From contig JAJJBE010000155.1 of assembly GCA_020996635.1 (NCBI GenBank), positions 1 through 34,599 of the forward strand: a stretch of 34,599 bases of DNA, in the 5' to 3' direction. Position numbers and translations under genes: made by a program. The first letter of the stretch is position 1, and the number at the start of each line of letters is the position of its first letter. The notes beneath the pieces are model-generated. The model was not told where the DNA came from, ran no database searches, and saw only the letters and a program-made list of their open reading frames with translations. The DNA comes from Bathymodiolus brooksi methanotrophic gill symbiont. GTDB taxonomy: Bacteria; Pseudomonadota; Gammaproteobacteria; Methylococcales; Methylomonadaceae. Shown in pieces: positions 27,426 through 34,017 of this stretch.

Positions 27426-28241
27426 ATGCAAGGAATTCTACGTAAAATGGAAACGGAGCTTTCACAGCCTGTTAAATATGTACTGCCTTTAGGGGAGCAA
27501 AAAGTTGAACTTAATTCTTTTATAGGTAAGCCTATAAAGCTAATATTCAAAGGGCATATTGCCTGCATTCATTGCCAACGAGATATAAAAAAGAGTTTTA
27601 GTCAGGGGTACTGTTACCCGTGTTTTAGTTCATTAGCACAGTGTGATCTTTGTATTATGAAACCTGAGACTTGTCATTATGAAGCGGGTACCTGTCGTGA
27701 GCCAGAGTGGGGCGAAGAGTTTTGCTTTCAGCCGCATTATGTTTATTTGGCAAATTCTTCAGGTGCTAAAGTGGGTATTACGCGGCACACACAAATCCCT
27801 ACGCGCTGGATAGACCAAGGTGCTGTGCAAGCATTACCTATTTTTAAGGTTAAATCACGCTATATTTCTGGTTTGGTAGAGGTCGCTATTGCTGAGTATG
27901 TCAGTGATAAAACTAGCTGGCAGCGAATGCTGAAAAACTTACAAGAGCCTGTCAATTTAATGGAAAAAAGAGATGAGTTGCTATTATTATGCAAGGATAA
28001 ATTAGCAGAAATTACTGAAAGATTTGGTGATGATGCGATTGAATTATTGACTGATGCAGATGTCGTTGATATTCAATATCCAGCTGAACGTTACCCTGAG
28101 AAAGTGAAATCATTTAACTTTGATAAAGTGCCAGAAGTAGCCGGTATTTTGCAGGGAATAAAAGGCCAATATTTATTATTAGATACCGGTGTGATTAATA
28201 TACGCAAATTTACTGGGTATGATGTGGAGTTTATTGCTTAA
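27426..28241 (+). CDS. DUF2797 protein with zinc-binding Cys pairs
   Basis: A 271-residue protein of the DUF2797 family; function unknown. Residues 47-90 hold regularly spaced Cys residues (CIHC, CYPC, CDLC, then two single Cys), probably binding zinc. They are followed by HYVYLANSSGAKVGITR (about 104-120), which resembles the GIY-YIG nuclease start; ILQGIKGQYLL lies near the C-terminus. The frame opens at 27393, but the ATG at 27426 is chosen because AGGA lies seven bases upstream. The stop overlaps the deformylase ATG by one base (TAATG), so the two were a coupled pair. Confidence 0.85.
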   Translation: MQGILRKMETELSQPVKYVLPLGEQKVELNSFIGKPIKLIFKGHIACIHCQRDIKKSFSQGYCYPCFSSLAQCDLCIMKPETCHYEAGTCREPEWGEEFCFQPHYVYLANSSGAKVGITRHTQIPTRWIDQGAVQALPIFKVKSRYISGLVEVAIAEYVSDKTSWQRMLKNLQEPVNLMEKRDELLLLCKDKLAEITERFGDDAIELLTDADVVDIQYPAERYPEKVKSFNFDKVPEVAGILQGIKGQYLLLDTGVINIRKFTGYDVEFIA

Positions 28242-28767
28242 TGAGTAAGCGAGAAATTGTACAGTTAGGTAATGAAGTATTAAGGCAAACTGCAAAGATT
28301 GTTGACGATATAGGTTCAAGTGAAATTCAGCAAGTTATTAAAGACTTGCTGTGTACTTTAGAAGGGACTAGTGGCGTGTAGGTATTGCTGCGCCTCAAAT
28401 TGCTGAATCTTGGCAAATTTTAGTGTTGGCATCAAGGCCGACACCCCGTTATCCAGATGCACCTAATATGCCGGAAACTGTGATGATTAATCCTAGTTTT
28501 ATTGCTTTATCGGATGAAATAGAAAAAGACTGGGAAGGTTGTTTGAGTATTCCTGATATTAGAGCTAAAGTACCAAGGTATAAGCTGATTAAAATTAGCT
28601 ATACAAGCCAACAAGGTTACCAAGAAAGTATGGAATTAAGTGGTTTTGTGGTGCGAGTTTTTCAACATGAATACGACCATTTAAACGGCTTGGTTTATTT
28701 AGATCGTGTAGAAAATAATCGAGATATTTTTTCAGAAGTTGAGTACTTGAAATTGAAAACACCCTAA
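28241..28767 (+). pseudogene. def: Peptide deformylase, broken by a frameshift
   Basis: The ATG at 28241 starts MSKREIVQLGNEVLRQTAKI but the frame ends in TAG at 28379-28381 after TSGV. The sequence continues one frame over as GVGIAAPQI (motif 1), EGCLSIP (motif 2) and QHEYDHLNG (metal-binding HExxH-type motif 3) up to 28767. Removing the duplicated GT at 28376-28379 restores GTSGVGIAAPQ exactly. All catalytic motifs survive, so the break is recent or an assembly error. The usual Gly after PQ-x is replaced by Ala-Glu-Ser here, suggesting a divergent, perhaps secondary, deformylase. Coupled to the DUF2797 gene upstream. Confidence 0.88.
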
Positions 28768-31620: not shown

Positions 31621-31711
31621 ATCGCTAAACCTCGGCGTGAGTCAGGGACAGAAAGCTACAGATCTTTAAAGGGTTTCATGCCCCTATTTTCCAAAGATGG
31701 CTGAACTGCAT
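31621..31711 (+). ncRNA. Cyclic-di-GMP-I (GEMM) riboswitch
   Basis: The order of conserved elements matches the GEMM-I aptamer: AAACC, then a hairpin CCTCGGC-GTGA-GTCAGGG closed by a GNRA tetraloop, GGGAC, AAAGCTAC, and a second stem ATCTTT / AAAGAT followed by GGCTGAACTGC. Consensus pieces for comparison are GCAAACC, GGGACGCAAAGCYAC and AGATAGCCGGGTTRCC. The sequence has drifted at a few usually conserved bases (GACAG for GACGC). The aptamer ends next to the AAAGGA ribosome site of the following PEP-CTERM gene, which suggests control of translation. GEMM riboswitches in front of PEP-CTERM genes are a known pairing. Confidence 0.75.
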
Positions 31712-31731
31712 TGATAGAAAGGAAAAATATT

Positions 31732-32316
31732 ATGAAAAAAATTATACTTACGTGTTTATTTTTAATGCTTGGCTTAACGCTATCTATTGCAAATGCTGCT
31801 TTAGTGACTCTAAATGCCACTCAAGCACAAACTATTAGTGGCCAAGATTTCAATTTCAACTTCGCTGATTTAGCCAGTTCAGATAATACAGGTGGTACTT
31901 TTGTTATCCATGCGCAAGGTGATTATGATGGCGCAAGTGATGAAAGCTTAGCATGGGATATTGATGGTTTAACTTCTGCGGCGGCTGTGGGTGGGTTTAT
32001 CAACGGTATAAATGGAGTTGGCGGCCCATTTGATTTTGTTAATGTTTTTCAACCATTAGGAAATATTGAATTCCAAAGAACGTATGCACTTAGTGCAGCA
32101 CTACTAAATAGCATCTTAGCAGATGGTATGTTGAATATATTTGTTAATTTAAACGATAGTGTTAATCTCTTTAATCCCCCTAACTTCGTTGAGGTAACAC
32201 TTACTTATAATAGCGATGTTTCTGCTGTTCCAGTTCCAGCCGCAGTATGGCTTATGGGATCAGGCTTGTTAGGTTTAATGGGCTTCAGCCGTAAAAATAA
32301 AAAATTAGCTGCTTAA
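31732..32316 (+). CDS. PEP-CTERM sorting domain protein
   Basis: A 194-residue exported protein: signal peptide MKKIILTCLFLMLGLTLSIANA (1-22), an acidic Asn/Asp/Gly-rich central part with no recognisable enzyme motif, and the C-terminal signal VPVPAAVWLMGSGLLGLMGF followed by basic residues, the PEP-CTERM tripartite signal read by exosortase. Such proteins are processed for surface or extracellular display, often with exopolysaccharide. The ATG at 31732 is chosen over TTG at 31711 since it starts the signal peptide and has AAAGGA eight bases upstream. Control by c-di-GMP is suggested by the riboswitch. The central domain is of unknown function. Confidence 0.88.
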   Translation: MKKIILTCLFLMLGLTLSIANAALVTLNATQAQTISGQDFNFNFADLASSDNTGGTFVIHAQGDYDGASDESLAWDIDGLTSAAAVGGFINGINGVGGPFDFVNVFQPLGNIEFQRTYALSAALLNSILADGMLNIFVNLNDSVNLFNPPNFVEVTLTYNSDVSAVPVPAAVWLMGSGLLGLMGFSRKNKKLAA

Positions 32317-32536: not shown

Positions 32537-33085
32537 TTAAATCTTGCCATCTAATCCCATTTGGAAATATTTGTGAGTGATTTTATCTTGGTTATCTAAT
32601 AACCAATCAATACTAGGCTCGTTATTCATCGCTTTTTTAATGGCTAATGCAGTCGCTTTACGATGGATATCAAACAAGATTTGGTGGTCTAAGTTATCAT
32701 CAGTTGCAACACTTGGGTTTAACCAAACTGAACAAATAATACCTAAGTCATTGGCTTTTTCTTTTGGAATATCACCAGCGCGCACAGCATCTAAAACGCC
32801 ATTAGCAATCGCAGCTTGTACTGTACCCATAAGGATATTAGTGTAGCGATTGTTATTAACAGTAACTTTGCTAACCATTAATGTTACAGGGCGCACTTGA
32901 ATATCAGTATTTAAAATAGCAAACACTTTAGAGTGACCTTTTGCTTGGTCGCCAGTTAAAGTCGCTAATGCTGTTCCCACAGGTCCATCTAACTCACCAA
33001 TAACAATCTCAGGTTCTGCTGCTGTTCCAGGTGGGCCACCGGCAACAAGAGCTTCTCCAGTACGTAAAACGATTCTATCGCTCAT
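32537..33085 (-). CDS. Formaldehyde-activating enzyme paralogue (Fae family)
   Basis: A 182-residue protein clearly of the Fae family: GEALV at the N-terminus, LMVSKVTVNNNRYTNILMGT in the middle, then AIANGVLDAVRAGDIPKEKA and AIKKAMNNEP. Fae condenses formaldehyde with tetrahydromethanopterin. The residue aligned with the proposed catalytic His22 of the M. extorquens enzyme (AHIDLIIG) is Glu24 here (AEPEIVIG), so this is probably a paralogue (Fae2/Fae3-like) whose activity may differ. The frame extends to 33133, but the ATG at 33085 has GGAG at good spacing and gives the family-like N-terminus. Divergent from a radical SAM gene across 71 bases. Confidence 0.88.
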   Translation of the reverse strand: MSDRIVLRTGEALVAGGPPGTAAEPEIVIGELDGPVGTALATLTGDQAKGHSKVFAILNTDIQVRPVTLMVSKVTVNNNRYTNILMGTVQAAIANGVLDAVRAGDIPKEKANDLGIICSVWLNPSVATDDNLDHQILFDIHRKATALAIKKAMNNEPSIDWLLDNQDKITHKYFQMGLDGKI

Positions 33086-33156
33086 TTTTTTCTCCAAAAA
33101 GGGTAAATCAAAAAGTATCAGGTAGAATAACATTTTTTAGCAAAAACTACCGTGTA

Positions 33157-34017
33157 ATGTCTCAGTTAACTGTAAAAGATCATAATCGTGATGCGATTGG
33201 CTTTAAATATATTTACCCCGTTATTTCTAGGCGCTCGGGCGGCTTATCAATTGGTATTAATGTTAATACTAATAATGCCTGTAATTGGGCTTGTGTTTAT
33301 TGCCAAGTACCTGATTTATCTATAGGTTCAGCACCTGAATTAGATTTAGAATTGTTGGCAAAAGAATTGGCTGAGTTTTTGCAGGATGTATTGCAGGGTG
33401 ATTTTTATGATCGCTTTGAAATTGAGCAAGATAAACGAGTGATTAAAGATATTGCACTTTCAGGAAATGGAGAGCCTACCAGTGTTAATAATTTTTATTT
33501 AGCGACTAAGACGATTATAGACGTTGTTGAGCAAGCAAATATACCAGCCCCCTTTCAGTATGTATTAATTACTAATGGGAGTTTAATTCATAAGCCTGAT
33601 GTACAAAAAGGTTTGCAACTTTTTAATCAACATAAGGGGCATGTTTGGTTCAAAGTAGATAGTGCAACAGGGGCAGGACGGCGGCTTATTAATCACACGG
33701 CAATCAGCACAGAGCAGCAGCAAAATAATTTAATTTTATCAGCTGAATTATGTAAAACATGGGTGCAAACTTGTGTATTAAGTTATGCGGGGCATGAAAA
33801 GGAAGGTTTGTTGACGAAAGTTGAGCAAGCAGCTTATTTAGCATTGCTAAAATATATCATTCAGAAAGTTAATATACAAGGTGTGATGCTTTATAGTGTT
33901 GCTAGGCCATCACTACAAGCACAAGCTAATTATATCAGCAGTGTAAAAGAAGAGCAGCTGGAAGAGTTTGCTAAAAATATTAGGCTTTTAGGGCTTACTG
34001 TAAAGGTTACTGTCTAA
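33157..34017 (+). CDS. Radical SAM protein of unknown function
   Basis: A 286-residue radical SAM enzyme. The cluster motif CNWACVYC gives Cys42, Cys46 and Cys49. IALSGNGEPT is the SAM-binding glycine motif, of the form seen in COG0731-type (TYW1-related) proteins. LSIGINVNTNN precedes the cluster. No auxiliary cluster motif is obvious, although two Cys are present at CKTWVQTC. The frame is open back to 33031, inside the fae-like gene on the other strand; the ATG at 33157 is preferred, though without a strong ribosome site. Substrate unknown; the divergent Fae paralogue may hint at a C1-related role, which is speculation. Confidence 0.8.
   Translation: MSQLTVKDHNRDAIGFKYIYPVISRRSGGLSIGINVNTNNACNWACVYCQVPDLSIGSAPELDLELLAKELAEFLQDVLQGDFYDRFEIEQDKRVIKDIALSGNGEPTSVNNFYLATKTIIDVVEQANIPAPFQYVLITNGSLIHKPDVQKGLQLFNQHKGHVWFKVDSATGAGRRLINHTAISTEQQQNNLILSAELCKTWVQTCVLSYAGHEKEGLLTKVEQAAYLALLKYIIQKVNIQGVMLYSVARPSLQAQANYISSVKEEQLEEFAKNIRLLGLTVKVTV

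Follow-up and report, generated by a model that had tools for sequence, protein, structure and literature searches.

A glutamate at the proposed catalytic histidine position in a conserved clade of Fae paralogues

A Fae homologue with glutamate at the position of His22

The methanotrophic gill symbiont of Bathymodiolus brooksi encodes a protein that TIGR03126 or PF08714 annotation would call a formaldehyde-activating enzyme, although the presumed catalytic residue is absent from it. What, then, does such a protein do? The window, by which we mean the whole 34,599-nucleotide stretch of contig JAJJBE010000155.1 that was analysed, carries the gene, which we call fae3, next to a divergent gene for a radical SAM protein (Table 1). 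A second in-frame ATG lies at 33133, 16 codons upstream of the ATG at 33085. As orthologues align with the 182-aa form from its first residue onwards, and as a GGAG stands 6 bases ahead of the downstream ATG, 33085 is the likely start.

Table 1. Features of the fae3 locus, in positions of the window
Feature	Position	Strand	Basis
fae3, 182-aa Fae-family protein (E-type clade)	32537..33085 (including stop codon)	-	profiles, tree, model
Codon 24, GAA (Glu), column of M. extorquens His22	33014..33016	-	HMMER, MAFFT
Codon 51, CAC (His), possible substitute acid/base	32933..32935	-	alignment; role putative
Intergenic 71 bp separating the fae3 start codon from that of the divergent radical SAM gene	33086..33156		
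Neighbouring divergent radical SAM gene, encoding 286 aa when read from the ATG at 33157	33157..34017	+	

We take His22 of M. extorquens Fae to be the proposed proton donor and presumed catalytic residue of the enzyme. The original prediction, which named no strand, had put a glutamate in this column, and both the letter and the place proved right: a HMMER alignment to 1y5y sets Glu24 opposite His21 of the chain (His22 when Met is counted), and a MAFFT alignment of 185 sequences places it in the same column as M. extorquens His22. The protein scores 201 bits against Pfam Fae (PF08714; cut-off 27) and 125 bits against the equivalog model TIGR03126 (cut-off 118). At an E-value of 0.001 it matches two distinct solved sequences: one is M. 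extorquens Fae, the other a chain under the name Avd in which the same stretch occurs.

The same prediction held that the rest of the Fae fold is kept, and the predicted structure agrees. An AlphaFold2 model, for which window and locus proteins were aligned in 41 rows, has a mean pLDDT of 95.3 and superposes on 1y5y_B with an rmsd of 1.4 Å over 161 residues (Z 25.5); Foldseek gives TM-scores of 0.82–0.86 by query length. Residues 2–169 of the model span residues 2–162 of the chain, and the 7 extra residues equal the 2- and 5-residue gaps of the sequence alignment. Judged by this count of extra residues, the superposition is consistent with Glu24 in the His22 column, where HMMER and MAFFT place it. 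The VIA-align rows other than Fae (Z below 10; EF-G/EF-2 and others) we took to reflect a common arrangement. By profile and predicted fold, then, the window protein belongs to the Fae superfamily.

Paralogue clades and the pocket

We compared the His22 column across loci classed by identity thresholds and not by the residue in that column; the classified loci are part of all matches from our family, order and phylum searches. Glu occupies the column in all 139 Fae3 loci (110 distinct proteins), a set that includes repeats, since L002 and L113 are both the window's own gene and some species are entered once by name and once by G handle. The column holds Met in 32 of the 33 loci of a sister paralogue clade, with Ile in the remaining one (L182), and His in 38/38 canonical loci and in all five loci of a fourth Fae-like group. 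Across the Fae3 loci the codon for Glu24 varies (GAA in 97, GAG in 42) while the residue is held in every one, which argues that it is there by more than chance. One of the six patterns used for the scan that gave our best 80 loci, AAEPEIVI, contains residue 24, so those loci alone cannot prove that Glu is general; the loci from searches made without this pattern are all Glu as well, as are 9/9 loci of the Glu type (E-type) in family genomes with low Fae scores.

To place the window protein, we used a tree of 78 chosen rows from which the His22 column had been removed. Fae3 (36 rows) forms a clade with support of 100/98, and within it the window protein groups with M. buryatense L063 and with L129 of G037 (100/98). 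Canonical Fae (100/98) and the fourth group (100/99) are likewise supported. The Met group (98/87, with L182) lies beside Fae3, and the two are joined at 99/96. On this tree the residue at the His22 column needs three changes, and the root is unsure, as the program warns of long branches meeting between Fae1 and the rest and both L182 and L191 are long-branched. The suggestion of a non-canonical Fae is thus borne out by the phylogeny: the Glu is real and clade-wide, and its clade stands apart from that of M. extorquens Fae. With Glu24 for His and a place in another clade, the window protein does not appear to be a canonical Fae (Fae1). Judged by these alignments, the Glu swap is a character of all Fae3 examined and not a peculiarity of the symbiont genome.

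How far does the change extend into the pocket? We take positions 24, 53, 71, 73 and 88 of M. extorquens Fae to be pterin or substrate contacts. Among these, Fae3 keeps Lys71 (139/139), Thr73 (133/139) and Gln88 (139/139), which are Lys73, Thr75 and Gln90 of the window protein, and changes Asp24 to Glu26 (139/139) and Leu53 to Phe55 (136/139), both conservative replacements. Among the columns that are fixed or nearly fixed in each clade but change from canonical Fae to Fae3 are these two together with Phe49 to His51, Tyr/Phe113 to Gly115, Phe119 to Trp121 and Trp122 to Pro124. The Fae3 pocket therefore looks preserved in part, while the residue proposed to donate the proton has been exchanged. 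Because His51 recurs in Fae3, in the Met-type clade and in the fourth group, where canonical Fae has Phe, it is a candidate of some interest; from its conservation, it could be a substitute acid.

Set beside Fae1 of M. extorquens AM1 (PDB 1y5y/1y60), the window Fae3 shares the fold (predicted here), the family profile and Lys, Thr and Gln at the contact positions, but it is only ~28% identical, has 2- and 5-residue insertions, and carries Glu for His22, Glu for Asp24, Phe for Leu53 and His51 for Phe49. The Met-type (M-type) sister clade, which we label 'Fae2-like', is closer (~38–51% identity) and shares Glu26, Phe55, His51, Trp121 and Pro124, but has Met, not Glu, at the His22 column. L182 (from G256) is an aberrant sequence of that clade, with an insertion and a very long branch in addition to its Ile. 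The fourth group (L198–L201 and L212; other genomes, same class; ~28% identity) combines His at 22 with Asn at 24 and either Gln or Glu at 73, and possibly has another function; the search that gave this group counted hits of 100 residues or more.

Distribution of fae3 and the host's canonical fae

If fae3 were the only fae of a functional methylotroph, a non-canonical role would be hard to argue. The search for a separate canonical copy found one: the symbiont genome (2.43 Mb in 268 contigs) has two PF08714 matches, the second of which, on contig C208, is canonical with the His. The genome also carries mch and one AMO/pMMO-family gene, and with a canonical fae beside these, fae3 is a paralogue.

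The nearest relatives in our genome collection, 97–99% identical, come from Methyloprofundus, Methylococcaceae and Bathymodiolus methanotrophic symbionts. The best 80 loci of the genome scan are 87–99% identical over the full length, Planctomycetota included (88–91% to the window protein), which argues that fae3 is not a decaying copy. Among 151 evenly sampled genomes of the order, 64 have Fae3 rows (72–100% identity over most of the query); among the matches listed there, the next rows fall to 42–51%, with one at 38%. Fae3-range rows occur in 8 of 398 phylum genomes, the window's own included. Many genomes of the family hold two to four Fae matches each, among the matches listed.

We also considered whether Fae3 occurs without Fae1. 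Of fourteen family genomes picked for a low best Fae score, several show only E- or M-type full genes, and several show Fae1 fragments, some at contig ends. In G069 (94% complete) only an E-type gene was found and no mch, with an FTR-family gene ~2 kb from fae3. In the four sister genomes of G069 a fae that scores high, in the canonical range, sits ~2.2 kb from mch on a single contig, so that one missing contig explains the absence of both from G069. Two further genomes have mch: G116 (91% complete), with an E-type gene only, and G007 (99%), with an M-type gene only. In such genomes either gene loss or an assembly gap may account for the missing canonical copy.

Published paralogues, neighbourhood and candidate roles

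The existence and class of the Fae3 paralogue are already known. A published tree of 78 Fae proteins has five groups, with function defined for groups 1 and 5 only (PMC11748545), and sensing, signalling or regulation has been proposed for Fae homologues (PMC3728764); paralogue class and sensing idea are thus both in print. Numbering is not uniform between these papers: Methylomonas sp. DH-1 has three fae, of which the one named fae2 is highly expressed (PMC6373157). What is new, as far as our literature search reaches, is the residue-based split of the bacterial Fae paralogues and the clade-wide Glu. In open-access literature searched by passages, a body from which subscription papers are mostly missing, neither the His/Met/Glu split nor a replacement of His22 was found.

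The closest studied gene is fae3 of Methylotuvimicrobium alcaliphilum 20Z (MEALZ_RS07105), a species different from the window symbiont. Among the matches listed, genome G037, presumably of this organism, has three to PF08714, at 0.93, 1.65 and 2.78 Mb. Their positions scale with the published locus numbers RS04100, RS07105 and RS11875; the second match is E-type and shares 91% identity with the window protein. From these proportional positions, MEALZ_RS07105 is very probably the orthologue of the window gene. Its deletion caused no growth defect (data not shown there), and in M. extorquens AM1 Δfae1 it neither relieved methanol sensitivity nor restored growth, on plates or in liquid (PMC11748545). 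Methyloversatilis universalis FAM5 has a distant Fae homologue also named Fae3, which may be of the E- or the M-type. Its deletion gave no growth defect on C1 compounds, and the gene is up almost 10-fold on methylamine; Δfae1 gave methylamine revertants and Δfae1 Δfae3 none, but Δfae3 added to a revertant did not abolish growth (PMC5023235). In Methylophilaceae, transcripts of fae2/fae3 type showed no response to conditions (PMC3728764). The published passages hold no function-assigning experiment, ligand binding, sensing, regulation or activity for Fae3.

Genes near fae3 offer a further clue. We found fhcC, a gene of the H4MPT-pathway formyltransferase/hydrolase complex, within the examined flank of fae3 in 20/80 loci and not in the examined flanking stretch of the other 60. 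At L080, two genes downstream of fae3 match the GXGXG domain and the FTR (FhcD) family, the FTR gene being called the next gene. Two other families there presumably resemble FhcA and FhcB by sequence. With fhc genes nearby in some loci, the tie of Fae3 to the H4MPT pathway holds for only part of the family.

Taken together, we favour, at slightly less than an even chance, a model in which Fae3 binds pterin or formaldehyde within the H4MPT pathway but does not do the job of Fae1. It would still bind a pterin, of the tetrahydromethanopterin type or another, or the formaldehyde adduct of that pterin. Lacking the His, it would not carry the formaldehyde-capturing flux, and it would act as a C1 carrier, buffer or sensor linked to that pathway. 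The formaldehyde sensor, carrier or regulator of the original prediction stays a candidate role. We favour this reading because a canonical His-type fae stands elsewhere in the genome; because Glu and His each hold their clades without exception, the Fae3 clade being recovered even with that column removed; because three of the pterin contacts are kept and fhcC is near fae3 in a quarter of the scanned loci; and because the M. alcaliphilum gene, in the published passages, fails to complement and can be deleted without a growth defect. Against it, a Glu is able to serve as general acid, and His51 might step in; the failed complementation may reflect expression, folding or partner needs; the published fae3 is taken as E-type from gene positions in G037; the methylamine induction and missing revertants in Methyloversatilis, whose fae3 may or may not be E-type, fit a metabolic role (PMC5023235); and the unresponsive Methylophilaceae transcripts (PMC3728764) and the many flanks without fhcC weigh against it. 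The acid capacity of Glu, His51 and the Methyloversatilis data also lend some weight to a somewhat less probable alternative, in which Fae3 catalyses an altered reaction, joining formaldehyde to another carrier (tetrahydrofolate, or another amine or thiol) or running in reverse to feed RuMP, with Glu24, perhaps helped by His51, as acid/base. Strong conservation across genera into Planctomycetota fits an enzyme, as do the conservation of His51 in the non-canonical clades and the columns that change with 24 (Asp24 to Glu26, Leu53 to Phe55, Tyr113 to Gly115, Trp122 to Pro124), and published proposals for Fae homologues include H4F-linked and reverse roles (PMC11748545, PMC6277846). We nevertheless favour the binding role over a changed reaction, for which the dispensability of fae3 for C1 growth in both M. 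alcaliphilum and Methyloversatilis, and the lack of any reported Fae3 activity in the published passages, are difficulties.

It is improbable that Fae3 is an ordinary Fae isozyme in which His22 is dispensable and Glu does the same job. The equivalog cut-off is passed, the predicted model superposes closely and the three contacts are kept, but fae3 fails to complement Δfae1 on plates and in liquid (PMC11748545), and its low identity to canonical Fae and its separate, deep clade also argue against equivalence. Still less probable, to the point of being very doubtful, is that fae3 and the divergent radical SAM gene form a functional unit, for example in pterin synthesis or maturation. The adjacency is real: counted by tblastn among the 78 loci that have 900 bp or more upstream, it occurs in 49, even as other neighbours vary, and in 42 of those 49 the fae and radical SAM matches are 70–107 bases apart. 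An earlier ORF-based count had shown no fae in L094 and L100–L102; in L100–L102 at least, a longer antisense ORF had displaced it. The radical SAM protein itself has Pfam and viperin-model matches below cut-off and no solved relative at an E-value of 0.01. Among the 398 phylum genomes, however, the radical SAM protein has matches in 74 and the window Fae in 22 (any type, in a search with the window protein that can miss distant Fae), and the two lists share no genome but the window's own. In the order, 128/151 genomes carry the radical SAM gene, far beyond the 64 with Fae3. We therefore set this gene aside as a partner, as its link with fae3 looks positional rather than functional.

Fae homologues without an assigned role are common in methanotrophs, and the proposals made for them (sensing, regulation, folate-linked transfer, a reverse reaction) have lacked a molecular handle. 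An active-site residue that sorts the paralogues cleanly is such a handle, as it can be swapped and binding and turnover tested. Fae3 is in this sense unexceptional as a paralogue, and its active-site signature is clean and testable. More speculatively, and on present evidence rather unlikely as a general scheme, bacterial Fae paralogues might be typed by their proton-donor residue (His, Met or Glu), with the Met and Glu types binding pterin or methylene-pterin so as to report on or buffer the C1 load of methylotrophs, a conserved sensing layer derived from a duplicated enzyme of which Fae3 would be the most conserved form.

Some minor observations concern the loci themselves. Long antisense ORFs overlap fae3 in L100–L102, L225–L229 and L231, and they beat it in a longest-ORF picker. 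Beside fae3 in the window, 31711–32316 (+) encodes a small, secreted-looking protein with a VPLPA/PEP-CTERM-like C-terminus that scores below model cut-offs. Further away, at 28241–28767 (+), a peptide deformylase is split, with residues 1–44 of a relative matched in 28241–28372 and residues 46–174 in another frame at 28378–28764; the break, near the first conserved motif, is probably a frameshift or an assembly error.
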